NCBI RefSeq assembly: GCF_022811925.1 | Contig: NZ_CP065511.1 | Coordinates: 923,501-987,500, forward strand | Reading direction: 5' to 3' | From: Cytobacillus oceanisediminis | GTDB taxonomy: Bacteria > Bacillota > Bacilli > Bacillales > Cytobacillaceae | DNA length: 64,000 nucleotides | Part shown: positions 1,413 through 58,302 of the stretch, piece after piece | Layout of the letters: every line of letters begins with the position of its first letter | Position numbering within the stretch: the stretch's first letter is position 1 | Notes under the pieces: generated by a model | What the model saw: only the letters and a program-made list of their open reading frames with translations | Databases searched by the model: none | Told to the model about the DNA's origin: nothing | Program-made: the position numbers and the translations under genes

Positions 1413-1450
1413 TATTCTTATTCCGTAATCGGGCGCGATTGTTTAATAAC
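1413..1450 (+). repeat. Degenerate box B repeat
   Basis: TTCTTATTCCGTAATCGGGC followed by GATTGTTTAATAAC keeps the spacing of box B (see copy at 3366). It is the leftmost trace of the repeat family, about 450 bases before the recombinase. Confidence 0.5.
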
Positions 1451-1486
1451 ATAGGCAGAAAATGATCAATTTTAATACTACAATAT

Positions 1487-1530
1487 AAGAATCCTTTTTG
1501 ATTAAACTTTTTTCAAAATGGATTCTTTTT
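1487..1530 (+). terminator. Hairpin terminator
   Basis: AAGAATCC at 1487 pairs with GGATTCTT at 1520, extended inward by TTTTTGA against TCAAAAT, and ends in a T-run. It separates the wall-binding gene from the recombinase region. Confidence 0.75.
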
Positions 1531-1688
1531 ATTTATTGTAAAATGCTGGCTCGTAAGATACAAAACAACAAAGAGACTAACTAATAACCAAGGGGTATGA
1601 GGTGTATTTAAGCTATGTCTACTTTGCCCCTGGTTACAGCAACGCTGGTACTGGGCCAATATGAAAATCCACTTTAAAAGCTACAACA

Positions 1689-1775
1689 GGAGAATAGAGT
1701 CATTCTAGAGATACCGGCTTTCTCTGCAGCATCCGTCCGAGTCATTCCTTGTTCCAGAAGATGAGTAATAACTAA
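1689..1775 (-). pseudogene. Helix-turn-helix remnant
   Basis: On the minus strand a short open stretch reads LLEQGMTRTDAAEKAGISR, which resembles the helix-turn-helix of a transposase or resolvase. There is no start and the frame stops soon after, so it is read as a remnant. The rest of 1531-1785 holds nothing else recognisable. Confidence 0.35.
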
Positions 1776-1785
1776 CAAGCACATC

Positions 1786-1820
1786 CTTATTGAACTAAAG
1801 GGTGCAATTACTTAATAAAT
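1786..1820 (+). repeat. Box A repeat before recombinase
   Basis: TTATTGAACTAAAGGGTGC followed by a short spacer and CTTAATAA. TTATT and AATAA form the outer arms of a dyad. It lies about 75 bases upstream of the recombinase start. Confidence 0.7.
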
Positions 1821-1894
1821 TCTATAAAACTAGTATATTTTTTAGTTTTCAGGCGGATAATGTTAATAATAGAACGGTCAGGGAGTTGTTCATT

Positions 1895-2726
1895 ATGCTT
1901 GTATCTGAAGCCTGGAATCTTTATAAAGCAGATAAACAAATTCAGGGATATTCTTCTCAAACCTTAAAGGTATATAAAGTGCAAATGTCTTTATTAATCA
2001 AGTACTTTGGAGATATTAAAATCACTGATATTACAACAGAATCCATTAAATTATTTCTTGGAGAAGTTGCTGCAGAGTTAAAAGCTTCTAGTCTCTGTCA
2101 TCGGATACGTTTTATAAAATCATTGTTTAAATGGGCTCAAGAAGAGAAATACGTTTCTATTAACCCGGTATCTACTATTAAAGAACCTAAGCCAGAGAGT
2201 AGAATTCCTAAGTTTCTTACGGAAGAGGAAATTGAATTGCTTCGTGAAGCATGTAAAACAACTTTTGAGAAAGCTATTTATGTATTCAACAGGCTGTAGG
2301 ATAGGAGAAGTTGTAAACTTAGATAAGCACTCAATAAATATGGCAGAACAATCCGTTATCGTTTTTGGAAAAGGAAAAAAAGAAAGAGAAGTGTATTTTA
2401 ATACTCAATGTAGTATTTGGTTAAAAAGATATCTAGAAGAAAGAGCTGATGATCAACAAGCGTTGTTCGTTACGATTCGAGCACCACATCGAATGAATAT
2501 TGCACAAATGAGATATGTCATAAAACAGATTTCCAAAAGATCACGAATAAATAAGTGCATTCACCCACATCAACTTAGACATAGCTATGCAACTACACTT
2601 ATTAATAATGGGGCGCCATTAGAGGTTATACAAAATTTAATGGGACACGAAAAAAGCGAAACTACCAGAGTCTATGCATACCTGAGCGGCCACTTGAGAC
2701 GTGAATTATATAAGAAATTTTTTTAG
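1895..2726 (+). pseudogene. Tyrosine recombinase/integrase, frameshifted
   Basis: Two overlapping frames together give a complete tyrosine recombinase of about 275 residues. Frame one (ATG at 1895 after GGGAG at 1881) carries the SAM-like core-binding domain up to FEKAI near 2275. Frame two carries the catalytic domain: box I arginine in STGCRIGE, the beta-hairpin lysine in GKGKKERE, HPHQLRHSYAT (H-x-x-R), GHEKSET and the nucleophile tyrosine in TRVYAYL. All catalytic residues are present. The shift lies near 2275-2290, where a typical XerC-like alignment lacks about two residues, so a small deletion is likely. It is transcribed in the same direction as the cassette genes, flanked by repeat copies on both sides, and resembles XerC/phage integrases more than a typical IntI. 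It is the only recombinase in the window that could act on the repeats, but may now be inactive. Confidence 0.8.
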
Positions 2727-2780
2727 GTGCTGCTTTGCAGCATTTTTTATTGAACTAAAGGGCAGGTTTGTTCAATAAGG
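2724..2780 (+). repeat. Cassette-boundary repeat, short terminator plus box B
   Basis: After the recombinase stop comes GCTGCTTTGCAGC plus T-run, then box B whose arms ATTGAAC (2749-2755) and GTTCAAT (2770-2776) are perfect inverted repeats around a 14-base spacer. Confidence 0.8.
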
Positions 2781-2790
2781 ATAGTCTTAA

Positions 2791-2828
2791 TTGACTTGGG
2801 AAAAATACCCCTAAATATAATTTAGGGG
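2791..2828 (+). promoter_or_regulatory. Promoter with palindrome overlapping -10 and ribosome site
   Basis: TTGACT at 2791 and TATAAT at 2816 (19-base spacing) precede the next gene. CCCCTAAAT (2808-2816) and ATTTAGGGG (2820-2828) form a perfect 9-bp inverted repeat covering the -10 and the likely ribosome site, so it may be an operator or an RNA hairpin that limits translation. Confidence 0.5.
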
Positions 2829-2838
2829 TGATGAAAGA

Positions 2839-3345
2839 ATGAACAAAAGGTTTTCTCTTTTATTACTTATGTTCAGTATCATAATTTGCGGAACAAATAA
2901 TGTAAATGTATTAGCCAATTCAAAAGGAGAAAGAAAGCCTCCTAAAAGTGTATGTGTAAAGGAATTTGAAAAGAAACGGATAGAATTTGATGACAGTGTA
3001 CTAAAAGATATTGTTAAGAGCTACAACTTAGACTTATCTGGATATCAAGAATTTAAGCACAGTTACTTAAACTTAAAAGTAGGGGATAAAATTAATGACC
3101 ATTCTGATAAAGTTTCATTACAGCATTTATTTGTAGGTCATAGTATTGGCTCAATGCGATTGTTTTTAGAGAATGGCTTAGAAGGGTCAAAAGGATATTT
3201 TCTTTATAAAAGAATCGAAGGAAACAATGTCAAAAAGGAATTGCATAAAATGGGTGAAGTTTGGGTTGTTATGTCAGTAGATGAAAAGAAAGCAGAAAAG
3301 CTGCAACTGATGCCTTTTAATTGGAACAAATGCACTGAAAATTGA
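2839..3345 (+). CDS. Secreted protein of unknown function
   Basis: The 168-residue product starts with a typical signal peptide: MNKRF, a hydrophobic stretch to about residue 22, then VLANS as a plausible signal-peptidase I site. The mature part is charged, has two cysteines (about residues 39 and 165) that could form a disulfide, and matches no family I recognise. The ATG at 2839 follows AGGGGTGATGAAAGA. It is a single-gene cassette with its own promoter, bounded by repeats at 2724 and 3366. Export is well supported; role unknown. Confidence 0.7.
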   Translation: MNKRFSLLLLMFSIIICGTNNVNVLANSKGERKPPKSVCVKEFEKKRIEFDDSVLKDIVKSYNLDLSGYQEFKHSYLNLKVGDKINDHSDKVSLQHLFVGHSIGSMRLFLENGLEGSKGYFLYKRIEGNNVKKELHKMGEVWVVMSVDEKKAEKLQLMPFNWNKCTEN

Positions 3346-3365
3346 CAATTACTGATATAAACTCT

Positions 3366-3452
3366 TTCAACTAAAATATGCAATTGTTCAATATCAGCTG
3401 CCGAACCAGGCGGCTTTTTTGTTGAACTAAAGGAGCAGGTTTAAGCAATAAG
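3366..3452 (+). repeat. Cassette-boundary repeat, complete (box A, terminator, box B)
   Basis: Reference copy. Box A (AACTAAAATATGCAATTGTTC) is followed by hairpin AGCTGCC-gaacca-GGCGGCT with a T-run, then box B (TTGAACTAAAGGAGCAGG, TTTAAGCAATAAG). Box A is just after one gene and box B just before the next. Confidence 0.85.
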
Positions 3453-3559
3453 TAAAAAAGATAACTTAGTTCGACGTATTGATCTAAGAAGGATTAATGC
3501 GTCTTTTTGTTGAAATTATTGTACAACATCCAAAAAATATACGAGAAGTGTGAGGAATA

Positions 3560-4378
3560 ATGAAAGTACTCGTACTAGGTGGGAAGGGGTTTCTTGGCTC
3601 TTCTTTAATTGCCCAGGCAAATAAAAAAAAGGTAACTATTTACGGAACTTCACGTCACGCAGTAGATAAAAAGAATATCATACAAGTAGATGTTAATAAT
3701 TTCTCCTCTTTAAAAGGGATGATAGCTGAAATTAAACCAGATGTTATTGTCTGGACTCTTATGAGTAACGATAACGAAATGGAATTAATCCACACAGGTC
3801 TTAATAATTTGTTGACAGTCATTAAACCTGAAACAAAACTTATTTTCATTTCAACTGATGCCGTATTTACTGAAGGGCTAGGAAACTATAAGGAATCGGA
3901 TACAATAGGTTTTCTCCCAAATGATGCTCCTCTTTCTGTATATGTAAATGCAAAACATACGGGAGAACAACTAATTAGGCATCTCCATAACAATCATATA
4001 ATTGTTCGAATAGGACCACTCTATGGTGACCGAAATAATATAGAAAAAAGAACAAACCGAATCATCCGATTAATGGAGGAAAATCAAGAAGTTAAAGCAG
4101 CAACTAATTTATACCGTACATTTACACACGTTAATGATTTATCGAATGCAATACTTGAATTGATTTACAATGAATTTACAGGAACTCTACACTTAGGACC
4201 TAAACAGAGCATAAGTTATTTTACATTTTATGAAAGACGGTTAAAGCAACTTGGAATTCATACGACTATAACACCATACGAAATAGATACGGATAAAGAA
4301 AGGTATGTTTCTCTAGATACTTCACTTAACACTCAAAAGGCAAACAATTTAATAAAGACTACTTTTCAAATAATATAA
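3560..4378 (+). CDS. RmlD-like NAD(P)-dependent sugar-nucleotide reductase
   Basis: A 272-residue extended short-chain dehydrogenase of the dTDP-4-dehydrorhamnose reductase type. It has the N-terminal Rossmann motif GGKGFLG (residues 7-13), an ISTDAVF strand after the cofactor fold, and the catalytic pair in YVNAKHTGE (Y-x-x-x-K). The family reduces nucleotide-bound deoxy-sugars or acts on related sugar substrates. No rml genes are nearby, so a complete rhamnose pathway is not encoded here and the substrate is unknown. Start ATG follows GTGAGG. It is a single-gene cassette between repeats at 3366 and 4390. Confidence 0.75.
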   Translation: MKVLVLGGKGFLGSSLIAQANKKKVTIYGTSRHAVDKKNIIQVDVNNFSSLKGMIAEIKPDVIVWTLMSNDNEMELIHTGLNNLLTVIKPETKLIFISTDAVFTEGLGNYKESDTIGFLPNDAPLSVYVNAKHTGEQLIRHLHNNHIIVRIGPLYGDRNNIEKRTNRIIRLMEENQEVKAATNLYRTFTHVNDLSNAILELIYNEFTGTLHLGPKQSISYFTFYERRLKQLGIHTTITPYEIDTDKERYVSLDTSLNTQKANNLIKTTFQII

Positions 4379-4389
4379 AAATAAAATCC

Positions 4390-4431
4390 TTATTTAGCTA
4401 TAGGGGCAGGTTGTTGAATAAGAACTGCAGC
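4390..4431 (+). repeat. Box B repeat
   Basis: TTTAGCTATAGGGGCAGG followed by TTGTTGAATAAG; lies after the RmlD-like gene without a clear box A. Confidence 0.65.
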
Positions 4432-4687
4432 AAATAAAGCTAAAGTTGTGAAAGGATTTGCACAGAAGTGATCTATTAGAGTTCAAAAAAAGGATTGTAT
4501 TTATGTAAACAACTGTAAGGATTTAAAACACGTTGAGTTTTTGTATGCATTTGTTAATTTGGTTGAGATCATGGGTTGAGAGTTTGGTCTAGGTAGTTCC
4601 CTAAAAGATGAAATAGGAATAAGATTTCGATATTAGCTAGGTATTTGAACTATGCTTGCTTTGCTTCAATATGGAGCAAAGCATCTT

Positions 4688-4722
4688 TCTTTTTCGGCTA
4701 ACGGGACAGGAAATTGTTTAAA
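4688..4722 (+). repeat. Box B repeat
   Basis: TTTTCGGCTAACGGGACAGG followed by AAATTGTTTAAATC, upstream of the AraC-type regulator. Confidence 0.55.
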
Positions 4723-4834
4723 TCAATCGAATTACCACATTATTGTGTTATTAGAACCGACATTTTTAGGCAATATATGTCGGGCAGCAAAGCCTGCTTT
4801 CTTCTAAAATGATTATTGGAAAGGGATGGAATAG

Positions 4835-5680
4835 ATGGATTGGCTGGAAAAAATGAATAACGTATTGGATTATATTGAACAAAACCTTGATAGTGAAATT
4901 GACTATAAAAGGATGGCAGCAATTGCTTATACTTCGGAGTTTCATTTCTCAAGGATGTTTTCATCTATTTCTGGTATATCATTATCAGAATACATTAGAC
5001 GAAGACGTCTAACAGCTGCAGCTTTTGATATTCAAAAAAGTGATATGCGGATAATAGATATAGCAGCAAAATACGGTTATGATTCTGTTGATTCATTTAC
5101 CCGGGCTTTTAAAAAGACACATGGAATGACGCCTTCTGCTGCCCGTAAAAATGGAATGCAATTAAAAGCCTTTCCAAGAATCTCTTTTCAAATTTCTATT
5201 AAAGGAGATGTAGAAATGGATTACAGATTAGAGAAAATCGACTTTGAACTAAGAATTGTTGGAAAGGGAAGACCGGTAAAAACTAGTAGAGCATTCAAAA
5301 CCATACCTTCAATATGGAATACTGCGAAAAAGGATGGATTTATGCAAAGGCTAATAGATATGTCATGGGAAAATCCAAAATGTACACTTGAAGGTCTATT
5401 GGGGATTTGCGGTAATGAAGCTGCTATTACAGATGAAGAGTTTGAGTATTTTATGGGGGTGAGATATGAGGAGGAACTCCCGAAGGATCTAAGAACAATT
5501 TGTATACCTCCAAGTACATGGGCTGTCTTCCCCAATATACCTAATGCATGGAAAAGGTTGTATTCAGAATGGGTTCCGACTTCTGGCTATGAGTTAGCAA
5601 ATTTGCCTTGTATTGAATGTTATTACGGACCAAAGCATCAACCAAGGCATGAGTTATGGGTTCCAGTGAGATCAAGATAA
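4835..5680 (+). CDS. AraC family regulator with GyrI-like ligand domain
   Basis: The 281-residue protein has two AraC helix-turn-helix units in residues 1-107 (MAAIAYTSEFHFSRMFSS, then IIDIAAKYGYDSVDSFTRAF and GMTPSAARK). Residues about 130-281 form a GyrI-like/SOUL effector-binding domain that senses small or amphipathic compounds. This order is typical of Bacillus Rob/BmrR-like regulators of drug response. The ATG at 4835 follows AAAGGGATGG. No transporter is next to it, so its target cannot be inferred. Intact cassette cargo. Confidence 0.85.
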   Translation: MDWLEKMNNVLDYIEQNLDSEIDYKRMAAIAYTSEFHFSRMFSSISGISLSEYIRRRRLTAAAFDIQKSDMRIIDIAAKYGYDSVDSFTRAFKKTHGMTPSAARKNGMQLKAFPRISFQISIKGDVEMDYRLEKIDFELRIVGKGRPVKTSRAFKTIPSIWNTAKKDGFMQRLIDMSWENPKCTLEGLLGICGNEAAITDEEFEYFMGVRYEEELPKDLRTICIPPSTWAVFPNIPNAWKRLYSEWVPTSGYELANLPCIECYYGPKHQPRHELWVPVRSR

Positions 5681-5996
5681 AAGAACGTTCTATAATTGAA
5701 TTCCTTATTAAGGTAAAGGGGGAAATGGAATAAGCCATATTGAAAATCAAGTGAGGGTGTTATTACTTATGTAGACCAAGATGAAGAAGCCGACTTCTAT
5801 TCTGATGAAGAAGAGGGATGCTGCGTTTGTTGTACCAACGAGGGTAGTTGTTAAATAAGAAGAGGTTATTACAAAAGGAGAATTCAACCAAAATTGGAAA
5901 TCCAAATTTATGGGGTGCAGCCTTAAAGAAAAAAGGAGGAGGTAATTTTATTAAAAGGGAGAATTTAATAAGCATATTATTGAGAGGAGTTTGAAG
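5681..5996 (+). other. Intergenic region with degenerate box B copies and coding scraps
   Basis: Degenerate box B copies at 5701-5734 (AGGTAAAGGGGGAAATGGAATAAG) and 5829-5861 (TACCAACGAGGGTAGTTG, TTAAATAAG). Between and after them are short open stretches without start codons, one encoding a cysteine-rich tail ending GCCVCCTNEGSC. These look like gene remnants. Confidence 0.4.
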
Positions 5997-6521
5997 ATGT
6001 ATCATAGCTTAAGCGATTTTTATGCATCTTGGGAATTTGAGGCAGGAGCTACAAGCAGGATTATTAAAAATCTCACGGATGAATCATTAAAGCAAGAAGT
6101 CACTCCAAATCAATGGTCTTTAGGACGTATTGCGTGGCATACGGTCACTTCTATTATAGTTATTAGTTCACAGGCAGGATTAAGGTTTGACGCTCCTGAT
6201 GAAGACTGGTCTGTCCCATCATCTGCTAATTTCATTGCTGAAAGCTATATTAAATCTTCACATGAATTTGTTGAGGCTTTGAAAACTCAATGGACTGATC
6301 AGACCCTATTGGAACAAATTAATTTCTTTGGAATAAACATGACAAAGGGAAGTCTTTTATTATTTTTAAGCCAACATCAAACTCATCACCGGGGACAAAT
6401 GACTATTCTAATGAGACAAGCAGGAATTAGTGTTCCAGGGATTTACGGTCCTTCAAAAGAAGAATGGGCACAATTTGGAATGGCTGAACCAAAACAGACT
6501 TTATTTGACAAAAATTTTTAG
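5997..6521 (+). CDS. DinB family protein
   Basis: A 174-residue four-helix DinB/YfiT-type protein. The expected metal-binding histidines are present in RIAWHTV (about residue 48) and SQHQTHHRGQ (about 130). Members bind a divalent metal and several in Bacillaceae are thiol transferases that use bacillithiol; the exact reaction here is unknown. ATG at 5997 is chosen over an in-frame TTG at 5991 because GAGAGGAG sits seven bases upstream of it. It is one of three DinB genes in separate cassettes (also 55107 and 57320). Confidence 0.8.
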   Translation: MYHSLSDFYASWEFEAGATSRIIKNLTDESLKQEVTPNQWSLGRIAWHTVTSIIVISSQAGLRFDAPDEDWSVPSSANFIAESYIKSSHEFVEALKTQWTDQTLLEQINFFGINMTKGSLLLFLSQHQTHHRGQMTILMRQAGISVPGIYGPSKEEWAQFGMAEPKQTLFDKNF

Positions 6522-6589
6522 AGACTGGATTGCATCTAGATATTTAATCAATTCACTATTATACAAAGCAAAGCCCCCTAATAACTGAC

Positions 6590-6657
6590 TTATGAACCAG
6601 CTGCCATCTAAGGCGGCTTTTCTTAATGGGCTAACGATGCAGGATAGTTAAAGAAGT
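6590..6657 (+). repeat. Cassette-boundary repeat, terminator plus box B
   Basis: AGCTGCC-atctaa-GGCGGCT with T-run, then GGGCTAACGATGCAGG and ATAGTTAAAGAAG. Box A is weak. Confidence 0.75.
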
Positions 6658-6754
6658 TTTTCTTTTCTGGATAGGTGCAAACTGTGTAGGAGGACCTTAT
6701 GAAGGAATTGTATAAGTTGTTAGAAAATAAATTTTCATATAGAGGTGGAATTAT

Positions 6755-8419
6755 ATGCCTAAAATTGACAATATGTTAGCAATTCTATGGATGCTTCGTT
6801 CAGGTGAAAAAATTACTGCAAAACAAATTTCAGAAAAGTTAGAGATGAATATAAGGACTGTGTATCGTTATATTGATACAATTTCAACAAGTGGCGTACC
6901 TATAATTTCAGAACCAGGACATAACGGTGGATACACTTTATTGAACAACTTTATTGAGGCTCCTCTTTTTTTTGATTTTGAGGAGCAAACTTCACTATTT
7001 CACGCTGCTGTTTTTGCAGAAGAAGCCGGATATTATGGAGGTGAAGCACTAAATAGGGCCATTTCTAAACTAAGTAAATACTCAAATCAAGAGCAGGAAA
7101 CAAAGATAAACCAACATTTAACTAGTCTTGAAGTAATAAGTCGATTAAGTTCACTCTCTATGAAACCTTATTTGAAGGAGTTGGAACAGGCCGTTGCTGA
7201 CGGGTACTCAGTAAAAATTCTCTACCATAAAAGTGGCGAAAAGCAATTAAATTATAGATTGGTCGATCCGTACAGAATTATCTATTGGAATAATATGTGG
7301 TATGTGATTGGATTTTGTCATCTTAGGAATGATATCCGTAGTTTTAGAGTAGATCGAATTGAAAGTCTAATGCTAACCGAAAATAAGTGTAACCGGCCAG
7401 AAAATTTTTCAGCACGTGACTTTTTTATAAAAAACCTTCTTCCAACTATGGAAGATAAGGAAGGGATTATTCCTTTGGTTATTAATGGAGATAAAAGTGT
7501 ATTGGCTGATATTTGCCAACATTGGTTTTTAGGACATTATTTACAAGAACGGACTTCAAATCAAGCAGTTTTTCTTCTTGAAGAAGATATAATACATACA
7601 TATGTACCTTATTTACTTTTACCGTACAATAAATCTATTAAAGTTATTGAGCCTATAAGTCTTAAGAAAAGACTTATTGAAGTTCTGTCGGAATTAATAA
7701 AATTTCATCATGATAACTTCCTGACGTTAACTGTCAGGAAGTTATTTTATAATTGCTATATAAATTGTGATTGGGAGTGTTGTTGGATGCAAACAAAAAA
7801 AGTTTTTCTATATGTATTTAATTCAATGTCGGACTGGGAATATGGATATTTAATTGCTGAACTAAACTCAGGAAGATACTTCAAAAAAGATTTAGCACCT
7901 TTAAAAGTAATTACAGTAGGAGCTAATAAAGAAATGATTATTACTATGGGAGGACTGAGCATAAAACCAGATATTTCCCTTGATGAATGTACTCTTGAAA
8001 GTAAAGATCTGTTAATTTTACCGGGAGGGACTACTTGGAGTGAAGAAATTAACCAACCTATCTTGGAAAGAATAGGCCAAGCTTTAAAGCTTGGCACTGT
8101 TGTTGCTGCAATTTGTGGTGCAACTGAGGCCCTGGCGAATATGGGATACTTAGATACTAGAAAGCATACAAGTAATAATTTAGAATACACTAAAATGGTA
8201 TGTCCTAACTATAAAGGAGAAAAGTTCTATGAGGGGGGATCTGCCGTATCTGATGCGAATTTAGTTACTGCATCAGGAATAGCTCCTCTGGAATTTGCGA
8301 TGGAAGTACTGAAAAAATTAGATGTATTTGCACAAGATACATTACATTCCTGGTATAACCTAAATAAGACTCATAAATCTGAATACTACTTCCAGTTAAT
8401 GAATTCAATAAATAGCTGA
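6755..8419 (+). CDS. WYL-domain regulator read through into a DJ-1/PfpI protein (fused ORF)
   Basis: One 554-codon frame covers two proteins that are usually separate. Residues 1-320 are a YafY-type regulator: N-terminal helix-turn-helix (ITAKQISEKLEMNIRTVYRYI), WYL ligand domain (about 150-210, LVDPYRIIYWNNMWYVIGF) and WCX tail. Residues 345-554 are a DJ-1/PfpI amidotransferase-like domain with LILPGGTTW and nucleophile elbow AAICGATEA. An internal ATG at 7787 after GGGAGTG fits an independent start for the second protein. The join spans a 13-bp inverted repeat (7713-7725/7733-7745) that looks like a terminator, and TGATAA stops lie at 7711 in another frame, so a one-base indel probably removed the original stop. 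The regulator may control the DJ-1 gene. Whether a fusion is made is unknown. Confidence 0.75.
   Translation: MPKIDNMLAILWMLRSGEKITAKQISEKLEMNIRTVYRYIDTISTSGVPIISEPGHNGGYTLLNNFIEAPLFFDFEEQTSLFHAAVFAEEAGYYGGEALNRAISKLSKYSNQEQETKINQHLTSLEVISRLSSLSMKPYLKELEQAVADGYSVKILYHKSGEKQLNYRLVDPYRIIYWNNMWYVIGFCHLRNDIRSFRVDRIESLMLTENKCNRPENFSARDFFIKNLLPTMEDKEGIIPLVINGDKSVLADICQHWFLGHYLQERTSNQAVFLLEEDIIHTYVPYLLLPYNKSIKVIEPISLKKRLIEVLSELIKFHHDNFLTLTVRKLFYNCYINCDWECCWMQTKKVFLYVFNSMSDWEYGYLIAELNSGRYFKKDLAPLKVITVGANKEMIITMGGLSIKPDISLDECTLESKDLLILPGGTTWSEEINQPILERIGQALKLGTVVAAICGATEALANMGYLDTRKHTSNNLEYTKMVCPNYKGEKFYEGGSAVSDANLVTASGIAPLEFAMEVLKKLDVFAQDTLHSWYNLNKTHKSEYYFQLMNSINS
7713..7748 (+). terminator. Former intergenic terminator inside the WYL/DJ-1 frame
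   Basis: ATAACTTCCTGAC and GTCAGGAAGTTAT form a perfect 13-bp stem with a 7-base loop, then TTTTAT. It lies between the two domains and is now translated as DNFLTLTVRKLFYN. Confidence 0.6.
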
Positions 8420-50754: not shown

Positions 50755-50777
50755 GATTATAATAAATAAATTACCTT

Positions 50778-51495: not shown

Positions 51496-52062
51496 TTATA
51501 ACATTGCTAATATTTCTTCTGTTTTTTTAATAATTGCAAATTCTTCATGCAGATTTGCTAAAGTCATCTCATGTATTTTTTCTGCATTAAATGTTTTCCC
51601 ATTGAAACTCTGCCTATCAAAAGTTGCCGTCGCATCTGAAACTAAAAAAGGATTAAAGCCGAGATTTCCAGCCATACGTGTTGTTGTTTCCACACAGTGG
51701 TTAGTCGTCAAGCCTGTTATAACAATATTAGGGCAATTATTTTTCCTTAATATTTTTTCAAGGTTTGTACCAATAAACGCACTATTAACACTTTTGGTAA
51801 TAACAATATCCTTTGGCTGTGGGTTAATCATTTCCTTGAATTCACTTGTTTCGCTTTTATAATAAAAAAGAGATTCTTTATTTTTTGACAAGTGTTTAAC
51901 ATAGATGACTAATCTTTGATTTAAATTCCAATACTCTATTAGCTTTTCGATATTTCTTTCAGCACATGGATTGTTTCTCTTTCCCCAACTGGAATCATCA
52001 AAAGCGCTTTGGACATCGATCACAATTAACGGGACGTTATCATGCAGCTTTATCAAAGTCAT
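51496..52062 (-). CDS. Isochorismatase-like cysteine hydrolase
   Basis: A 188-191 residue hydrolase: catalytic Asp in LIVIDVQSAF, Lys in ITKSVNSAF and nucleophile Cys in TGLTTNHCVETTTRM. The family hydrolyses isochorismate or amide/imide compounds. The start is unclear: ATG at 52071 lacks a ribosome site, 52062 is used here, and a TTG at 52056 is best spaced after GGAGGT. Divergent from an Lrp-type regulator that may control it. Confidence 0.85.
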   Translation of the reverse strand: MTLIKLHDNVPLIVIDVQSAFDDSSWGKRNNPCAERNIEKLIEYWNLNQRLVIYVKHLSKNKESLFYYKSETSEFKEMINPQPKDIVITKSVNSAFIGTNLEKILRKNNCPNIVITGLTTNHCVETTTRMAGNLGFNPFLVSDATATFDRQSFNGKTFNAEKIHEMTLANLHEEFAIIKKTEEILAML

Positions 52063-52201
52063 TACCTCCATAGATTTAATAACTTAATTGTAATAATTCA
52101 CTTTCACTTTTTACATAGATTTATTATTGTATTTTTATTAAAATATTTAATAAATTAAGCTTTTTATAAGGTTACACTTTAAAAATGAAGGTGGCTTTAG
52201 A

Positions 52202-52624
52202 ATGGATGAAATTGACAAGAGAATTTTGGTTGAATTGCAAGAGAATGCACGCATATCGGTGACAGAGCTAGGAAAAAAAATTGGGCTATCCACACCGGCA
52301 ACAAATGAGAGGTTAAAAAGATTAGAGGAAAAGGAAGTTATTATAGGGTATCGAGCTGTTATTAACCCGGAAAAAATAAACAAGCATGTTATTGCTTTTA
52401 TACTTTATGACACAAAGAAATGTAAGGAGTTTAGAGATTTTTGCATTGCCCATCCAAGTGTAATAGAGTGTCATAGGCTAGCTGGACAATTCAGTTATTT
52501 AGTAAAGGTTGTAACAGAAACAGTTCACACTCTTGAGGACTTTATAGACGATTCAATGGTTTATGGACAACCCTCTTCATTAATAAACCTTTCATCACCG
52601 GTAAAACATAAACCTATAGCTTAG
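52202..52624 (+). CDS. Lrp/AsnC family regulator
   Basis: A 140-residue Lrp-type protein: DEIDKRILVELQENARISVTEL, helix-turn-helix GLSTPATNERLKRLEE, then a RAM ligand-binding domain (HVIAFILYDTKKCKEF, CHRLAGQFSYLVKVV). ATG follows AAGGTGG. Divergent from the isochorismatase gene with a 130-base shared promoter region. Confidence 0.9.
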   Translation: MDEIDKRILVELQENARISVTELGKKIGLSTPATNERLKRLEEKEVIIGYRAVINPEKINKHVIAFILYDTKKCKEFRDFCIAHPSVIECHRLAGQFSYLVKVVTETVHTLEDFIDDSMVYGQPSSLINLSSPVKHKPIA

Positions 52625-52689
52625 TTTGCATTATTTCTTTCAGCTGCTGCACAGTACGATAGAAATATGTACTAACGGAGAAGGTGGTT

Positions 52690-52777
52690 ATTCAACTTAA
52701 GGGTGCTTATATTCAAGATCAGCTGCCGAATTGGGCAGCTTTTTTTATTCAACAAAAGGGGCAGATTAATGAAATAT
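52690..52777 (+). repeat. Cassette-boundary repeat, complete
   Basis: Box A TTCAACTTAAGGGTGCTTAT, TTCAAGAT, hairpin AGCTGCC-gaatt-GGGCAGCT with T-run, box B TTCAACAAAAGGGGCAG and ATTAATGAAAT. Confidence 0.92.
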
Positions 52778-52830
52778 AGATATACTCACTAATATACAAA
52801 ATGTTACAATTATTGGTAGAGGAGAAAGAG

Positions 52831-52992
52831 TTGAGTATTTTTCTTTTTGCTGTTATTCACATATTGATAGGATTAGCCTTAATTTATTTTTATGGAAAAT
52901 TGCCAAAGGCACTTACGGTATTTCTATCTGTGTTCTTTATTATTAGTTTTCTTTATTGGGGAACAATTTTAATAAATTCTTCGTTAAGCTAA
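52831..52992 (+). CDS. Mini membrane protein
   Basis: A 53-residue protein made almost only of two membrane helices (FLFAVIHILIGLALIYFYG and LTVFLSVFFIISFLYWGTILI). TTG at 52831 lies six bases after GAGGAG; the ATG at 52801 has no ribosome site. Its stop is five bases before box A of the next repeat. No family recognised; it shows how small a complete cassette can be. Confidence 0.6.
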   Translation: MSIFLFAVIHILIGLALIYFYGKLPKALTVFLSVFFIISFLYWGTILINSSLS

Positions 52993-53072
52993 TGGGTGCT
53001 TATGTTCAAGAACAGCTGCTAATCAGGCAGCTTTTTTCTTATTCCATAAACGGGGCAGGTTAGTGAAACAAA
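52984..53072 (+). repeat. Cassette-boundary repeat, complete
   Basis: Box A AGCTAATGGGTGCTTATG, TTCAAGAA, hairpin AGCTGC-taatcag-GCAGCT with T-run, box B CCATAAACGGGGCAGG and TTAGTGAAAC. Confidence 0.92.
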
Positions 53073-53173
53073 AAGATGATAAAATTCCATCTTATATGTG
53101 GTATTTGACACATACTGTGAAAAAAATATGCTTTAAAAAGGAAAAAAGCGCCTAACAAGAGGCGCTTTATACA

Positions 53174-53719
53174 TTAGCAATCCTTAGATTCATTGTAGTG
53201 TAGAGGAGGGGGGATTAACCATCCTTTTTCTTTGTTAAGCTTTAAGATTTTTAAACCGAATTGTGCCTTTGCCATATGAAACTGACCATACATCATGGCA
53301 ATATCTTCTCGAATACTTTGACCCATTACTTGACTACATGTCACTAATCCAGCAGCTGTATCTTTTGAAATTGATGCGCTAATTTCTGGATCAGTAAATC
53401 TGGCTCCTACCGGGATACTTTCAAGATTTGCATTAGGGCGATCCGGTGGAGCAGGTGGTAGTCCAATTCCATTTGTTTTTAATAAGTCTTGCAATTGATT
53501 ATTCTCGTTTTTTAAACCTTGTATCGCTTCTTCAATGAGTTTTTTTAAGTCTTGATCACCAGAATGGTTAAAAAAAGACTGATATCCTGCAATCATGCCG
53601 TTATTAGTCAAAAGATGAGTCCAAGTCGAAACTACCTCACCATAATGCATGGGTTCATCCTGGGGGTTACCACTTAATATTCCCATAACTACACTCCTTA
53701 TCATTTTTTGAATATTCAT
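53174..53719 (-). CDS. DUF3231-type protein, second copy
   Basis: A 181-residue helical protein similar to that at 37126: MHYGEVVSTWTHLL, NGIGLPPAPPDRPNANLESIPVGARFTD, SIREDIAMMYGQFHMAKAQFGL. Both copies are on the minus strand, opposite to most cassettes. Function unknown. ATG follows AAAGGAGTAAC on the minus strand; a hairpin (AAAAAAGCGCC/GGCGCTTT near 53145-53170) lies downstream as terminator. Confidence 0.75.
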   Translation of the reverse strand: MNIQKMIRSVVMGILSGNPQDEPMHYGEVVSTWTHLLTNNGMIAGYQSFFNHSGDQDLKKLIEEAIQGLKNENNQLQDLLKTNGIGLPPAPPDRPNANLESIPVGARFTDPEISASISKDTAAGLVTCSQVMGQSIREDIAMMYGQFHMAKAQFGLKILKLNKEKGWLIPPPLHYNESKDC

Positions 53720-53863
53720 ATGTTACTCCTTTTAAGTAAAAATGAGTATAAGGATAGTATGTATTTGAATGCAGGAGGATATTCTCTGTAATGGAATTTT
53801 AATGTAAGGATATATATGACTGATTACCAGGGAAAACGGTTTATATTGCACAATTCGAACAGG

Positions 53864-53957
53864 TTATTAAAGTAAAGGGTGCTTACTAAAAGAACTAGCT
53901 GCCATCTTAGGCGGCTTTTCTTATTCCATAAAAGGGCAGGTTTCTTCAACAAGGGAG
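53864..53957 (+). repeat. Cassette-boundary repeat, complete
   Basis: Box A TTAAAGTAAAGGGTGC, hairpin AGCTGCC-atctta-GGCGGCT with T-run, box B CCATAAAAGGGCAGG and TTTCTTCAACAAGG. Confidence 0.9.
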
Positions 53958-54021
53958 CGTTTTTTATGGAAAAATATGGGTGATCCTTTAATTGAGAAAA
54001 CTGCTATTGGAGGTGATAAAA

Positions 54022-54201
54022 ATTCCTAAGGTTGCAATGAAACGATGTTTTTTTGCATTAAGACTATTGGTTTTTATGATTCTCCTGGCATTTGTTATTT
54101 TTAATGGTTTAGAAACAGAAAGTTTTATCGCATTGTTGATAACACCTTTATTCTTCATAGGAAAGCCTTGGTACAGTTATTTTAGAAAAGACCAAAAGTA
54201 A
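54022..54201 (+). CDS. Small membrane protein with unusual start
   Basis: A protein of about 59 residues with a membrane pair (LRLLVFMILLAFVIFNGL and IALLITPLFFIG). The best ribosome site GGAGGTGAT (54009-54017) is placed for an ATT codon at 54022; in-frame alternatives are TTG 53992 (no ribosome site) and ATG 54037 (too far). The start is thus uncertain. No family recognised. Confidence 0.45.
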   Translation: MPKVAMKRCFFALRLLVFMILLAFVIFNGLETESFIALLITPLFFIGKPWYSYFRKDQK

Positions 54202-54245
54202 ATATGTTTAAGGTCATCGTTTTTATTTTATAGATAACGAATAGC

Positions 54246-54316
54246 TTGAGTTAAACTAGGGGTTGCTACGGCAGCCCTTTTTCTTATTCCACTAAGGGGT
54301 AGATTAGTTCAACAAT
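54246..54316 (+). repeat. Cassette-boundary repeat, complete
   Basis: Box A TTGAGTTAAACTAGGGGTTGC, hairpin GGTTGCTACGGCAGCC with T-run, box B TTCCACTAAGGGGTAG and ATTAGTTCAACAAT. TTGA and TCAA arms are intact. Confidence 0.85.
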
Positions 54317-54360
54317 TGATTGGGGTAATTTGGTAAAATGAATTTAAAAAGGAGGGTATA

Positions 54361-54948
54361 ATGAAAAAGTTAAAATCTATTTCTATTTTAATTATAACAT
54401 TTGTCGTACTTCTACTATCTGATGTTTATATCAACAAAGACGACGTTTCTACCAACGATGACGATGATGATGGTAAGGCTCGAGATGACCGTATTGCATC
54501 TGTTATTAACGCTGTATTTGATGAATATGGTTTATTCAACTCTCAAGTAGGTAGTACAGACTCAATAATCCGGATTGAAATGGACGAAGCAAACAGTGAG
54601 CAAGAGCTACTGGAATATTTAGAGAAAAACATATCTAAAGCAGATTTAAGGCACTACAATATAAAAATTTTGAAGAGAAATTTAAAAGAAGTACAGACAG
54701 AGCATGCTATGCTGTTGCTTGAAGGTATTGCAATGGATTACATAAAGGAAAAAAATTATAATGATGTTCAAGTTTATTATCCTAATGGTAAACCAGAACA
54801 AGTATTAAAAATAATTATTAATGAGACAAGTGAACGATCCAGTGAAGATTTAAAAGCTGAGTTAGAAAATTTCTTAGCTACTAAGGGTGCTGAACTTCCA
54901 GTACCACTAAGAGATATTTCATATGAAATTCAGATAATAAAAGTTTGA
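54361..54948 (+). CDS. Signal-peptide protein, paralogue of 30500 (DUF4030-like?)
   Basis: A 195-residue protein with hydrophobic N-terminus (ISILIITFVVLLLSDVYI), an acidic run (NDDDDDGKARDD), and a soluble part similar to the product at 30500. ATG follows AAAGGAGGG. Shared blocks are listed at 30500. Function unknown; presence of two diverged copies in different cassettes is notable. Confidence 0.68.
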   Translation: MKKLKSISILIITFVVLLLSDVYINKDDVSTNDDDDDGKARDDRIASVINAVFDEYGLFNSQVGSTDSIIRIEMDEANSEQELLEYLEKNISKADLRHYNIKILKRNLKEVQTEHAMLLLEGIAMDYIKEKNYNDVQVYYPNGKPEQVLKIIINETSERSSEDLKAELENFLATKGAELPVPLRDISYEIQIIKV

Positions 54949-54974
54949 ATGATTTTCCCTCAGGAAAGTCGTTA

Positions 54975-55045
54975 TCCTTATTCAACTATAGGGTGCTTTT
55001 GCTCAAGAAAGTGTTGCAATGATCTTCAACAATCGGGCAGGGCTT
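54975..55045 (+). repeat. Cassette-boundary repeat, variant box B
   Basis: Box A TTATTCAACTATAGGGTGC, TTGCTCAAGAA, then CTTCAACAATCGGGCAGG. The CAACAATCGGGC variant also occurs at 36858 and 47842. Confidence 0.75.
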
Positions 55046-55106
55046 TTTACAGTGAAGACCGAAGTATTTAGGAAGGAAAAATTTAACTGAAAGGGAGGAA
55101 TCCTTG

Positions 55107-55625
55107 ATGGGAAAGCATCATGCGTTAAAACTGTATGATTATCACGTTTGGGCGAACAAAAAGTTTTTCGAGCGATTGAAAGAATTGCCCAAGGACATTT
55201 ATGATCGGGAAATACAAAGTGTTTTTTCCTCGATTGCGAAGGCACTTGTTCATATTTATACGGCAGATACAATATGGCTCGGTGTAATGCAGGAGAATAG
55301 TATGGAAGAGATTCAAGCTTCTATCGCCATTGCTCAAGAAACGACAAAAGATAAGAGTCTTGAAGAAATGGAAAAGCTGTTTCAAAGTTTGTCAGAGGAA
55401 TATCAAAAGCTTCTTAACAATGTTAGCGATTTGGATAAAGAGATTTCACCAGTGCATCCTAAATTTGGGCGTTTGGATACTCATTTTTCTGAATTGATTC
55501 AGCATGTTGTTAACCATGGCACATATCACCGCGGAAATCTTACGGCAATGATTCGTCAACAGGGATACTCAAGTGTATCTAATGATTATGTTTTTTATCT
55601 TTACGATATCAGCACGTCAAATTAG
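55107..55625 (+). CDS. DinB family protein
   Basis: A 172-residue DinB/YfiT-type protein. The three metal histidines are likely in ALVHIYTADTIW and QHVVNHGTYHRGNLTAMIRQ. DinB proteins here may be bacillithiol-dependent transferases, in keeping with FosB elsewhere in the array. ATG 55107 follows AAAGGGAGG. Complete cassette. Confidence 0.85.
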   Translation: MGKHHALKLYDYHVWANKKFFERLKELPKDIYDREIQSVFSSIAKALVHIYTADTIWLGVMQENSMEEIQASIAIAQETTKDKSLEEMEKLFQSLSEEYQKLLNNVSDLDKEISPVHPKFGRLDTHFSELIQHVVNHGTYHRGNLTAMIRQQGYSSVSNDYVFYLYDISTSN

Positions 55626-55950
55626 TTTTTTGCTTAAATTTATTCCGGAAGGTAAGTAAGGTTTTGTATCTAATTATCGCACTCGGGTTCTTTTAGAGTA
55701 AAGCGTAATGTGTATAGGGCCATTTAAGGGGAATCAGTTTATATCTGCAAATTTTTTCAACATATTAAGACCTGTAGGTTGATAAGACAATTTTACAAAA
55801 TTAAAAAGAATCAAAATCTTATATAAAATGTGATTGATGGTGGAAATCACATTTTAGATTTTGATTAAGAACCAATAAAATCTATTGAAATATTAAAAGG
55901 TGTCATTTCAAGGTTAGTGGAACTTGATAATTTAAAGAATTTTTTATAAA
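55626..55950 (+). other. Intergenic region before cat leader
   Basis: AAAATGTGATT (55825) and AATCACATTTT (55845) make a strong hairpin. A frame scrap (KSIEILKGVISRLVELDNLK) before 55950 lacks a start and looks like a remnant. No other gene is supported. Confidence 0.5.
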
Positions 55951-56017
55951 AAGGATGACTGTCATGAAAAAGCAGTGAAAATAGCCTCCTAAGATAAATT
56001 TAATTATATTAGGAGGC
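55951..56017 (+). promoter_or_regulatory. Translation-attenuation leader of cat
   Basis: AAGGA (55951) precedes a short leader ATG AAA AAG CAG TGA (55964-55978). Then GCCTCCTAA (55984-55992) and TTAGGAGGC (56009-56017) form a perfect 9-bp stem that hides the cat ribosome site AGGAGG. A ribosome stalled on the leader would open it, as in inducible cat genes. With one extra A the leader would read MKKAVKIAS, the nine-codon length of classic leaders, so it may have lost a base. Confidence 0.8.
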
Positions 56018-56024
56018 GTTGAAT

Positions 56025-56672
56025 ATGAAATTTAACATTATTAATCGTGACAATTGGGATCGAAAAGAATATTTTGAACACTATTTACAGCAGCAGACAA
56101 CATTCAGTATAACGAATGAAATGAATATTACTATTCTGATGAAGAACTTAAAGAAAAAGAATTATAAGTTATATCCTGCGTTTATTTTTATGGTTACAAA
56201 AATCGTTAACTCCCACAGAGAATTTAGAATAAGTTTTAACTCAGAAGGTAATTTAGGTTATTGGACAGAGATTTGCCCTCTCTATACAATTTTTGATAAG
56301 AAGACGCACACATTTTCTGGCATCTGGTCACCAAACTTAGCAGTTTTTTCTGAGTTTCATTCTCAATATGAAAATGATGTAGAAGAATACAATGGTACGG
56401 GGAGATTATTTCCAAAAACACCTATACCAGATAATAATATTCCGATCTCTATGATTCCCTGGAGTTCTTTTACGGCATTTAATTTAAATATAAATAATGG
56501 TGGGGATTTTCTCTTGCCCATAATAACTGGAGGGAAGTATTCACAAGTAAATGATGAATTATTCCTGCCTGTCTCTTTACAAATGCATCATGCTGTTTGT
56601 GATGGCTATCATGCTGGAGTTTTTATGAATGATTTACAAAGACTTGCTGATGAAAGTGCAGACTGGATTTAG
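56025..56672 (+). CDS. cat: Chloramphenicol acetyltransferase, type A
   Basis: A 215-residue trimeric CAT: catalytic histidine in LQMHHAVCDGYHAG near the C-terminus, N-terminal FNIINRDNWDRKEYFEHY and WSSFTAFNLNI are typical. It acetylates chloramphenicol with acetyl-CoA in the cytoplasm. ATG 56025 is eight bases after AGGAGG, which is buried in the upstream stem; inducible expression is predicted. A terminator follows at 56695. No plasmid or transposon genes flank it. Intact. Confidence 0.93.
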   Translation: MKFNIINRDNWDRKEYFEHYLQQQTTFSITNEMNITILMKNLKKKNYKLYPAFIFMVTKIVNSHREFRISFNSEGNLGYWTEICPLYTIFDKKTHTFSGIWSPNLAVFSEFHSQYENDVEEYNGTGRLFPKTPIPDNNIPISMIPWSSFTAFNLNINNGGDFLLPIITGGKYSQVNDELFLPVSLQMHHAVCDGYHAGVFMNDLQRLADESADWI

Positions 56673-56694
56673 CTGGTCATTGGAGGAGTATAAC

Positions 56695-56724
56695 AAAGGA
56701 ACTGTGTACAGCAGTTCCTTTTTT
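56695..56724 (+). terminator. Terminator after cat
   Basis: AAAGGAACTG and CAGTTCCTTT with T-run. Confidence 0.85.
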
Positions 56725-56797
56725 ATAGAAATACTAAAGTTTGTAAAGATAACAATCGAAAAACGAAAAGAATAAAATAAGATAGGGGCTAGTTACG

Positions 56798-57145
56798 ATG
56801 ATAAAAGGTTTCGGCGGGATATTTTGGCGAACTAAGAATCTTGATGCTGTGAAAAAATGGTACAGTGAAGTGTTGAAGATTGAAATAGAAAATTGGAATG
56901 GGACTGTGGTTAAACCACAATTAGGGAATGAAACCATCTTTTCTTTCTTTGCCGAGAATGACAGTTATTTTCCAACAGAACAACAAGTGATGTTGAATTT
57001 TCAAGTACATAATCTAAACGAGACTATTAAGCATCTTGAACAAATGGGTGTACCTCTTGTTAAGGAAAAAGAGGTTAGTGAGTTTGGGAAGTTTATTTGG
57101 ATTGAAGACCCTGAAGGTCGGCTGGTCGAGCTTTGGGAGAAATAG
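56798..57145 (+). CDS. Glyoxalase/VOC family protein
   Basis: A 115-residue VOC protein: KGFGGIFWRTKNLDAVKKWYSEVL, VMLNFQVHNLNETIKHL and FIWIEDPEGRLVELWEK with terminal Glu ligand. ATG at 56798 follows AGGGG at a wide spacing. Reaction unknown. Confidence 0.82.
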   Translation: MIKGFGGIFWRTKNLDAVKKWYSEVLKIEIENWNGTVVKPQLGNETIFSFFAENDSYFPTEQQVMLNFQVHNLNETIKHLEQMGVPLVKEKEVSEFGKFIWIEDPEGRLVELWEK

Positions 57146-57162
57146 CAAGTTGTCATTTATTT

Positions 57163-57253
57163 GCTATTGAGCTATCGGGTGCCTATGTTCAAGGTCAGCT
57201 GCCGAAAAAGCGGCTTTTGATTATTAATTAAACAGGCCAGGTTAGTATAAAAA
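57163..57253 (+). repeat. Cassette-boundary repeat, complete
   Basis: Box A TTGAGCTATCGGGTGCCTATG, TTCAAGGT, hairpin AGCTGCC-gaaaaa-GCGGCT, box B TTAATTAAACAGGCCAGG and TTAGTATAAAAAGG. Confidence 0.85.
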
Positions 57254-57319
57254 GGAGTTCCTGTCATTTTGTTGAAATACTCTTTAGTGGCACCTAATTT
57301 TTTTAAGGAGTGGATAAAA

Positions 57320-57790
57320 ATGAATCGAACTGAATTGCTCTTAAGAATGCTTGATACTACATACGATAATGAGAGCTGGTATGCGCCTTTCAAACCTGCA
57401 ATAGAAGGACTCACCGCCGAACAGGCCAGGTGGAGACCGGCAGGAGAGACAACAAAATCAATTTGGGAAAATGTTAATCATCTTATTTACTATAAAGAAA
57501 GACTTGCAGCAAATTTAGAAGGCCGTGAATGGGCACAAAATCTCGATGGGGATCAAACTTTCTGCCTTACAGAACAAATAAATGATGACAGGGAATGGAT
57601 GGCTGTCGTTGAACGCGCAGAAAAGGTTCAACGCAGTTTAAGAGAAGCTTTAATTAAAACAACCACTGAAGTGCTTGAACAAAATTCTCTGGAAGAAAAG
57701 CTATTAGACATAATGCTTCACGATGCATACCATACGGGTCAAATTATTCAAATTAGGAAGATGCAGGGTTCCTGGCCATCACATCGTTGA
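57320..57790 (+). CDS. DinB family protein
   Basis: A 156-residue DinB protein: MNRTELLLRMLDTTYDNESWYAP, IWENVNHLIYYKERL and DIMLHDAYHTGQIIQIRKMQG carry the metal histidines. ATG 57320 follows AAGGAGTGG; an upstream frame opening at 57269 is not conserved. Third DinB cassette. Confidence 0.85.
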   Translation: MNRTELLLRMLDTTYDNESWYAPFKPAIEGLTAEQARWRPAGETTKSIWENVNHLIYYKERLAANLEGREWAQNLDGDQTFCLTEQINDDREWMAVVERAEKVQRSLREALIKTTTEVLEQNSLEEKLLDIMLHDAYHTGQIIQIRKMQGSWPSHR

Positions 57791-57819
57791 TAGGAGGAAA
57801 AGCAGCTGAATAATAGACA

Positions 57820-57851
57820 TAAATAAACGGGTGATTTGCTCCTGGATCCTA
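57820..57851 (+). repeat. Box A fragment
   Basis: ATAAATAAACGGGTGATTTGC directly after the DinB gene and joined to a GNAT remnant without terminator or box B. Confidence 0.55.
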
Positions 57852-57852
57852 A

Positions 57853-58079
57853 GGGGTTATGCAACTGAAGCTGTGAGTAATTTAGTGAAGAAGTTATTTG
57901 TTGAGTTTGATGTGCATCGTATACAAGCCAGCCTTGATGCAAGAAATAAACCCTCACAAAAGTTGTGTGAGCGTATAGGTATGAGAAAAGAAGCTCATTT
58001 CATACAGGATTTTTGGAATATGGATGAATGGACAGAGAGCATTGTGTATGGAATGCTACTTTCAGATTTAAATTTATGA
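57853..58079 (+). pseudogene. RimJ-type GNAT, C-terminal half only
   Basis: RGYATEAVSNLVKKLFVEF (second half of motif A), VHRIQASLDARNKPSQKLCERIGMRKEAHF and WTESIVYGMLLSDL form the C-terminal half of a RimJ/RimL GNAT. The N-terminal 90 or so residues are missing; the truncation point coincides with the box A fragment at 57820. Not expected to be active. Confidence 0.78.
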
Positions 58080-58220
58080 AACTAGCAGCAGGATTGTACT
58101 GAGATTTTTTATATATATTAAATTCCGTTGAAATGCTCCTCGCGGTACTGGTTGAGTTACTTTTCCAGACAAAGTACCCCTAAAGATTTCACTAAACTGT
58201 ATTAATTTGATTATACAGCT

Positions 58221-58302
58221 GCTTTATTGAACTATAGGTGCTTATGCTCAGGGATGCTGCCGAATAAGGCGGCATTTATTATTTAATTAACGGAGCAGCT
58301 TA
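58221..58302 (+). repeat. Cassette-boundary repeat, last copy
   Basis: Box A TTGAACTATAGGTGCTTATG, CTCAGG, hairpin GCTGCC-gaataa-GGCGGC, box B TTAATTAACGGAGCAGC and TTAGTTGAAAT. No copy is seen to the right of it. Confidence 0.88.

Follow-up and report, generated by a model that had tools for sequence, protein, structure and literature searches.

Integrons, including sedentary chromosomal integrons, hold small unrelated genes between sites of one family in one orientation, have a tyrosine recombinase, and carry cassettes that are common to several species. Their attC sites are targeted by insertion sequence (IS) elements of the IS110 family (IS1111-attC). In engineered recombinase-mediated cassette exchange, a cassette that lies between two non-cross-reacting sites is swapped by two crossovers. 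The dif modules of Acinetobacter plasmids (pdif) likewise consist of genes between Xer-type core sites; the modules are of two alternating kinds and crossover takes place between identical or nearly identical spacers (PMC13141974), and IS elements are reported to target the sites (PMC10132070). Complete integrons are described as extremely rare in Firmicutes, where integrons of any kind turn up just occasionally for reasons that 'remain unclear' (PMC9024848). Here, we analyze 64,000 nucleotides of the Cytobacillus oceanisediminis chromosome (NZ_CP065511.1, positions 923,501 to 987,500), called the window below and numbered from its first letter, in which two arrays of small unrelated genes are interspersed with a repeat made of two core sites, A and B. 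The arrays share the features of integrons listed above, and we consider it very likely that they form a mobile gene-cassette system, whose units between direct A/B cores are moved whole, most likely by a dedicated XerC/D-like tyrosine recombinase.

When the window is searched with a profile built from 10 copies of the repeat, 37 matches are obtained, all on the + strand (E < 0.1), and the refined profile gives 35, again all + (35/35; E < 0.05). Box A with at most one mismatch matches 10 times (0.74 expected) and box B with at most three mismatches 13 times (0.34 expected), and none of 100 shuffles reaches as high in either case. This bears out a preliminary description of the window, in which the repeat was said to be dispersed between small genes in two arrays. 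The full repeat comprises two recombinase-type core sites of about 30 bases each that flank a terminator hairpin. The consensus of A is approximately TTAAACTAAM-GGGTGC-NTTNNTTNAAGA (TTNAACWAAN^GGGTGC when variants are allowed), and that of B approximately TTNAACWAAM-GGGGCAG-GTTWGTTNAANAAG (TTNAACWAAN^GGGGCAG). The left arm TTNAACWAAN is thus common to both, while the G-rich core is GGGTGC in A vs GGGGCAG in B. Both sites have imperfect inverted arms on either side of a short core, which is the layout of tyrosine-recombinase core sites.

In 15 aligned copies of the window, a gene is followed by A, the terminator hairpin, B, and then the next gene, an order that had been called constant; other copies have A alone or B alone. 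Terminator-like sites are abundant between 40.5 and 58.5 kb (22 vs 8.7 in shuffles), but promoter-like sites in the same segment are not enriched (78 vs 72.3), so the promoter that had been assigned to each next gene finds no backing here. The distance between the A and B cores is 56–61 bp in 150 of 232 A-to-B pieces of 150 bp or less (duplicate loci left in), and of the pieces of 50–65 bp that start at A, 76 of 77 finish at B (first 41 loci). A stretch resembling TTGTGAAN4TGYACTTAAAC precedes several A sites at unit ends (8610–8630, 11046–11066, 15062–15082, 32716–32736, and 37882–37902); the beginning of this stretch resembles the left arm in inverted form, and it is perhaps a candidate accessory binding site. 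At Rfam gathering scores, the sole match in the whole window is a SAM riboswitch at its right edge (63918–64000).

Sites with different neighbors indicate how the arms are inherited. When upstream neighbors differ, left arms are 0.64 identical and right arms 0.94; when downstream neighbors differ, the values are 0.95 and 0.64. The right arm of each core is, by sequence comparison, a property of the next unit, and as judged from these alignments the left arm goes with the left unit and the right arm with the right unit. At right junctions with differing neighbors, 36 of 37 pairs exchange A for A or B for B, and the kind of right junction is uniform in 26 of 27 unit families (these counts, and the frame-direction count given below, omit seven duplicate loci). 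We infer that like site pairs with like, the cores having to match. Under such a rule, a gene between B and A would be unable to leave alone, and would be carried with a neighboring hairpin or swapped by two crossovers. Homology breaks cluster in the core despite the low identity of the flanking repeat, and the exact cut in B is not fixed because its two variable core bases go with either neighbor.

The relatives examined do not share one gene order, in line with the mobility proposed in the preliminary description: units are absent, swapped, or relocated, and gain, loss, and reordering occur unit by unit with junctions at the sites. Site-bounded units recur at 90–99% identity in other species and other contexts. 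To define ends of shared DNA, we used high-scoring segment pairs of at least 90% identity and at least 250 bp, taken between loci from different genomes as far as known, and omitted seven same-genome or near-clone locus pairs as well as pairs within the window's own genome. On this basis, 152 of 714 ends fall no more than 20 bp from a core at each of the two loci, vs a mean of 0.51 and a maximum of 3 in 200 random rotations of the sites; the 152 ends are not all independent, because they are drawn from 123 locus pairs and 180 sites, and their division between A and B is approximate because the aligner can cross a 57-bp hairpin.

For example, Neobacillus niacini PL-B1 and Mesobacillus maritimus share a 6.1 kb block at 99.2% identity, each end of which is no more than 17 bp from a core, and the recombinase unit of the window (1800..2759) recurs in other contexts in genomes G035 (96%) and G005 (86%). 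In genome G001, units 4630–6655 and 6650–8617 of the window (97%) are found about 3.8 kb apart; since the second adjoins the conserved border at 15088, a 6.45 kb A-to-A stretch is missing there. In G005, units 42680–45962 and 41186–42170 (96%) stand in swapped order, whereas the core chromosome beside array 1 is 84% identical over a 396-bp stretch, an indication that the units were transferred laterally. Orientation is kept in 378 shared stretches and changed in 13; of the latter, ten involve L063 or L229, where the sites do not allow an orientation to be set, a 1.83 kb IS110 element accounts for two, and the last is the pair L183/L193. A seemingly clean single-unit indel between the near-identical arrays L066 and L068 was rejected, as it proved to be one large difference (about 2.4 kb) away from a core and, as such, offers no support for cassette movement.

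The candidate enzyme is encoded in the arrays themselves. A tyrosine recombinase had been placed at the left end; it is present at about 1.8–2.7 kb as a unit in its own right, broken and in two frames, while the open reading frame (ORF) at the left end itself (34–1266) encodes a peptidoglycan-binding protein, and the box at 1413, taken earlier as the start of the repeats, falls below the site threshold. This genome has 11 Phage_integrase matches, and an intact relative that is 66% identical to the window copy lies at another array of the chromosome (3312292–3313146). The residues R, K, HxxR, H, and Y, which we take to be the active-site motif, are invariant in six intact copies, and XerD (1a0p) is the closest in sequence among solved structures. 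The family splits into a type F branch, whose members have 282 aa and run parallel to the array, and an antiparallel type R branch of about 280 aa. The best 80 of 186 relatives represent 78 loci in named genomes (71 type R and 7 type F), and repeats lie within 10 kb of the recombinase at 75 of these. Of the repeat matches at type R loci, 511 of 517 are antiparallel to the gene and 6 parallel, while all 36 at type F loci are parallel. Where sites pass threshold, the recombinase gene usually lies between A and B; specifically, an A site is found 30–130 bp past the stop in 42 of the 71 type R loci and a B site 60–160 bp before the start in 35. Among 61 genomes, at least 16 encode a member of the family (60% identity or more, fragments included), and among the matches listed the repeat occurs in 16 of 16 recombinase-bearing vs 27 of 45 other genomes (P = 0.0015).

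The repeat itself is present in at least 43 of the 61 genomes, including all 36 of the genus of the window, and, with 13 candidates scored per genome, in at least 60 of the 299 genomes drawn from the order, with carriers in 33 of 117 genera. In a phylum-wide sample, 3 of 299 genomes have it, all three from the same order as the window. Within the C. oceanisediminis genome, at least 74 matches are found at E ≤ 1 (150 of 2705 candidates scored), located at 0.86–1.0 Mb (+) and 3.2–3.53 Mb (−) with one outlier at 2.20 Mb (−), and the refined profile finds none at E ≤ 0.01 in twenty 8-kb samples (160 kb) of the same chromosome. The genome-wide terminator family against which the preliminary description had set its proposal is therefore not what we observe. 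Because a dif-like site (2588252, i.e. 2.588 Mb) and GC skew place the terminus between both regions, 73 of 74 copies point along replication, although the skew samples at 1 and 1.08 Mb deviate; selection on the genes and a mechanistic strand preference are both candidate causes. Layouts appear similar in G005, apart from a single departure at 1.604 Mb, and in G035, where the boundaries are uncertain.

The repeat is also found on 23 plasmid records from Peribacillus, Cytobacillus, Sporosarcina, Mesobacillus, Metabacillus, Niallia, and Priestia, and the recombinase is encoded on five plasmid records, three of them among these 23. Phage records searched with a 90-base query, and viral contigs searched with one exact 27-base pattern, give no match. 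A MobV relaxase plasmid (pSP10-6k, 5990 bp; L233) has A sites at 605 and 943 and a B site at 655, all after an ASCH-domain gene, and group II intron maturases lie near repeats on a Peribacillus frigoritolerans plasmid (L234, 13832–15106 and 22084–23412).

Several plasmid resistance genes lie between the same sites. On pC194 (NC_002013, L256), catA (1260–1907) is flanked by an A site at 1098 (25.9 bits) and a B site at 1970 (38.6 bits), which lie on the − strand, and the top scores in 1000 resampled plasmids are 16.1 and 13.1. Published primers for the pC194 cat marker fall on an A and a B box (PMC4403831). Further cases include B-dfrK-B on Staphylococcus hyicus pKKS966 (L261, 945–1511; 40.6 and 40.4 bits), B-catA-A on a Bacillus arachidis plasmid, and A and B around catA on Limosilactobacillus reuteri pLRI04; L257 1552–2449 and L262 1339–2211 are among the site-bounded stretches with such genes. 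On the other side, a Priestia catA plasmid has no site within 2 kb, a Metabacillus plasmid has A sites only, before catA, and an Enterococcus faecium plasmid has one B only. The border of pC194 offers no clean junction, because the backbone that it has in common with other plasmids starts 80 bp beyond the B core (most of the 60 matches listed of 1904). Some cat and dfrK genes are cassette-shaped, and they may have been moved by the A/B system.

In the mechanism that we propose, the recombinase would bind the arms and exchange strands in the core, and A would pair with A and B with B, since the cores must match. Stretches from B to B or from A to A would leave as circles and re-enter at a like site, while a gene between unlike sites would be swapped through two crossovers. 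The short A-hairpin-B piece would then be an exchangeable transcription terminator between genes, and the broken recombinase of the window could be served in trans by its intact relative at 3.312 Mb on the same chromosome.

Other enzymes and other kinds of element have to be weighed against this mechanism. Host XerC/XerD could work the A and B sites, as in the Acinetobacter dif modules, with the array recombinase as a passenger. The family is indeed nearest the XerA/XerC/XerD profiles (about 200–209 bits, also below their own cut-offs; three intact copies), 27 repeat-bearing genomes have no family member among the matches listed, and dif modules, too, require identical or nearly identical spacers (PMC13141974). 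By contrast, the dif-like site of the chromosome is unlike the A or B consensus when compared by eye, and the proximity of repeats to 75 of 78 family recombinases speaks for the array enzyme. As a further difference from dif modules, a family recombinase lies in many of the arrays, and chromosomal arrays hold tens of units. Moreover, neighboring pdif sites, which are dif-like, alternate in orientation (PMC13141974), whereas A and B sites are direct repeats and lie on one strand throughout 38 of 41 array loci (L063, L116, and L131 are mixed). We regard host Xer as an unlikely agent.

A divergent true integron, with an IntI relative, attC-like folded single-stranded sites, and an attI beside the integrase, would account for the array layout, the small unrelated cargo, and the single orientation of one site family (37/37 copies + in the window, 38/41 array loci, and 73/74 copies genome-wide relative to replication). 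The antiparallel recombinase of type R loci and the IS110-family elements at A/B sites, comparable with IS1111-attC elements at attC, fit as well, and arrays without a recombinase recall clusters of attC sites lacking integron-integrases (CALIN). However, the recombinase is not of the IntI family: three intact copies score 89.5–101.3 bits with the integron-integrase profile TIGR02249 (cut-off 265), and the best stretches of two proteins skip profile positions of about 181–232. Repeats flank the recombinase on both sides (158 copies 5′ and 142 copies 3′ of the gene, at 41 loci with 9 kb on either side), placing it within the array and not beside an attI platform at its end, and there are two kinds of site, with breaks at A and at B. 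Covariation between A and B arms is not detected, and attC-like pairing between the left arm of A and the right arm of B, or the right arm of A and the left arm of B, shows no excess over partner shuffles among 73 distinct full sites, which is no proof of absence. An RNAalifold pairing of CTGCC with GGCAG was considered as an attC-like fold and rejected (5 pairs, no two-sided changes). Because neither a pairing signal nor an end-located integrase was found, we do not file the arrays as an integron, and such an origin seems very improbable to us. The chromosomal integron invoked in the preliminary description thus survives as an analogy in overall logic and not as a membership.

The repeats could also mark a mobile element that carries the recombinase and has A and B as its ends; the hairpin copies would then be nonautonomous short forms, similar to miniature inverted-repeat transposable elements, that spread beside genes and move them as a by-product. 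Where sites pass threshold, the recombinase is framed by A and B just as the short hairpin piece is, and A-to-B recombinase units of about 970 bp are present in several contexts, both of which suit such an element. Yet genes, too, are shared as core-to-core units beyond the A-to-B pieces, one orientation is kept across whole arrays, and the lone exit of an A-to-B piece contradicts the A–A/B–B junction rule; we find this explanation likewise unlikely. Very little probability falls, finally, to an ordinary dispersed terminator or palindrome family with genes shuffled by homologous or illegitimate recombination. The hairpin is terminator-like, and random hairpin pairs average 72% identity and are alike enough for a family, but breaks gather at cores though the identity of the flanking repeat is low, copies are confined to arrays, and the recombinase family tracks the repeats. 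The bcr and REP-type repeats, compared by description only, are also short, intergenic, and in many cases equipped with hairpins; to our knowledge, they are not known as borders of exchanged gene units.

A dedicated cassette system remains the reading that we prefer, and the following observations weigh against it. Most homology ends (562 of 714) are away from cores. In G001, about 16 bp of left-arm sequence are absent from the border junction, which keeps the A core and right arm, and the left boundary of unit 6650 falls 39 bp inside the core. The hairpin between the swapped units of G005 has 82.8% identity to the window hairpin that precedes 41253 and 75.9% to that which follows 45898; as both values are near the background of random hairpin pairs (72.4 ± 6.6%), either unit may have been its travel partner. 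A near-constant A-hairpin-B length is unnecessary for two independent sites, and the A–A/B–B agreement could be partly due to selection that keeps a terminator after a gene. At type R loci, A and B are both above threshold at the expected distance in just 21 of 71 cases, with the wrong kind of site at the A position in 3 and at the B position in 2. No family recombinase is among the matches listed for 27 of 43 repeat-bearing genomes, whose arrays would then be idle or served by another enzyme.

Within the window, array 1 (1784..15103, +) consists of repeat-bounded units that encode, by Pfam, the recombinase, RmlD-like, AraC/GyrI-like, and DinB proteins, DJ-1/PfpI with WYL, two GNAT proteins, KAS III, DFP, an IS110 transposase, a further GNAT protein, and MOSC. 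The recombinase unit runs from core A 1800 to core B 2759 (+), with its Phage_integrase gene split between ORFs 1802–2299 and 2232–2726 in different frames. Full sites on the + strand follow at 3360..3463 (A core 3376, hairpin, B core 3432), 8610..8730 (A 8636, B 8694), 9227..9340 (A 9250, B 9308), and 13520..13626 (A 13537, B 13594); the A core at 8636 is the left end of the A-to-A block missing in G001. A B site with the variant core GATGCAG (6618..6658, core 6636, +) is a junction in G001, as the right end of the left unit, and in G024, as the left end of the right unit. The A site at 15062..15110 (core 15088, +) forms the border between array 1 and the conserved chromosome, and different units adjoin it in the window, G001, and G003.

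Array 2 (29763..58311, +), defined by profile, site scores, and Pfam and starting with a weak B site (29768), carries FosM, GNAT, subtilase, DUF3231, YCII, a beta-lactamase-fold protein, VOC, DinB, CatA, isochorismatase, AsnC, and others. The cargo named in the preliminary description is accordingly recovered, with GNAT, VOC, DinB, and AraC and AsnC regulators in Pfam and FosM and CatA above cut-offs. The FosM-family cassette (33007..33600, +) comprises B core 33007, the gene at 33031–33495, A core 33542, a hairpin, and B core 33600. The full site at 41182..41285 (A 41196, B 41253, +) is the left end of the unit relocated in G005, i.e. unit 41196..42150 (+), which encodes a 207-aa protein without a family and, at 95.9% identity, follows the 42750–45898 unit in G005 instead of preceding it. 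That latter unit (42750..45898, +) holds the beta-lactamase-fold protein; in G005 its left break is at B and its right break, read by eye since the aligner continues through the hairpin to the next B, is at A. It is bounded by full sites at 42673..42784 (A 42691, B 42750, +) and 45874..45979 (A 45898, B 45956, +), in the second of which an IS110-family element is inserted right after GGGGCAG, with the remainder of a B right arm at about 47797. Further full sites on the + strand are located at 52684..52790 (A 52701, B 52758), 52974..53085 (A 52994, B 53052), 53859..53966 (A 53877, B 53933), and 57159..57267 (A 57177, B 57234), and the last copy of array 2 in the window is at 58214..58311 (B core 58292, +). 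The type A chloramphenicol acetyltransferase gene (56019..56672, +) lies within the stretch from A 54991 to A 57177.

Three IS110-family transposase genes are found inside the window arrays. One element (45956–47797) lies directly 3′ of GGGGCAG, a second, at the B site 38426, begins 5 bases later, and an element or remnant is also seen in or beside the B core at 30296–30340. Repeat orientation is not merely gene orientation, because minus-strand genes lie between the + repeats, including IS110 (12048–13283), flavodoxin-like (31832–32392), two DUF3231 (37126–37680 and 53174–53719), DoxX (49022–49417), and isochorismatase (51496–52071) genes. The longest frame follows the array direction in 408 of 483 units of 250–1600 bp, taken from 121 loci (41 array, 78 recombinase, and 2 plasmid) minus the seven duplicates.

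A description of the A/B system was not found in the literature covered, outside of which fall bioRxiv and most subscription journals. We tentatively suggest, as a proposal somewhat short of even probability, that it may join integrons and dif modules as a third natural means of gene capture. One recombinase family would act on long rows of core sites of two mutually exclusive kinds, genes would be swapped through cassette exchange as it occurs in nature, and terminators would be exchanged as parts in their own right; the system would be spread over Bacillales and would have been the route of pC194 cat and dfrK to staphylococcal plasmids. Engineered exchange with heterospecific sites differs in that the A/B arrays are natural, line up tens of sites in a row, and would owe their present order to exchanges deduced by comparison. 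Since the sites are defined to the letter, an enzyme is proposed, and the crossing rule is clear, the system is testable at once. As its sites flank cat and dfrK on plasmids, it may be an unrecognized source of Gram-positive resistance, and the findings suggest that Bacillales have a cassette system of their own, with another recombinase and other sites than those of integrons.

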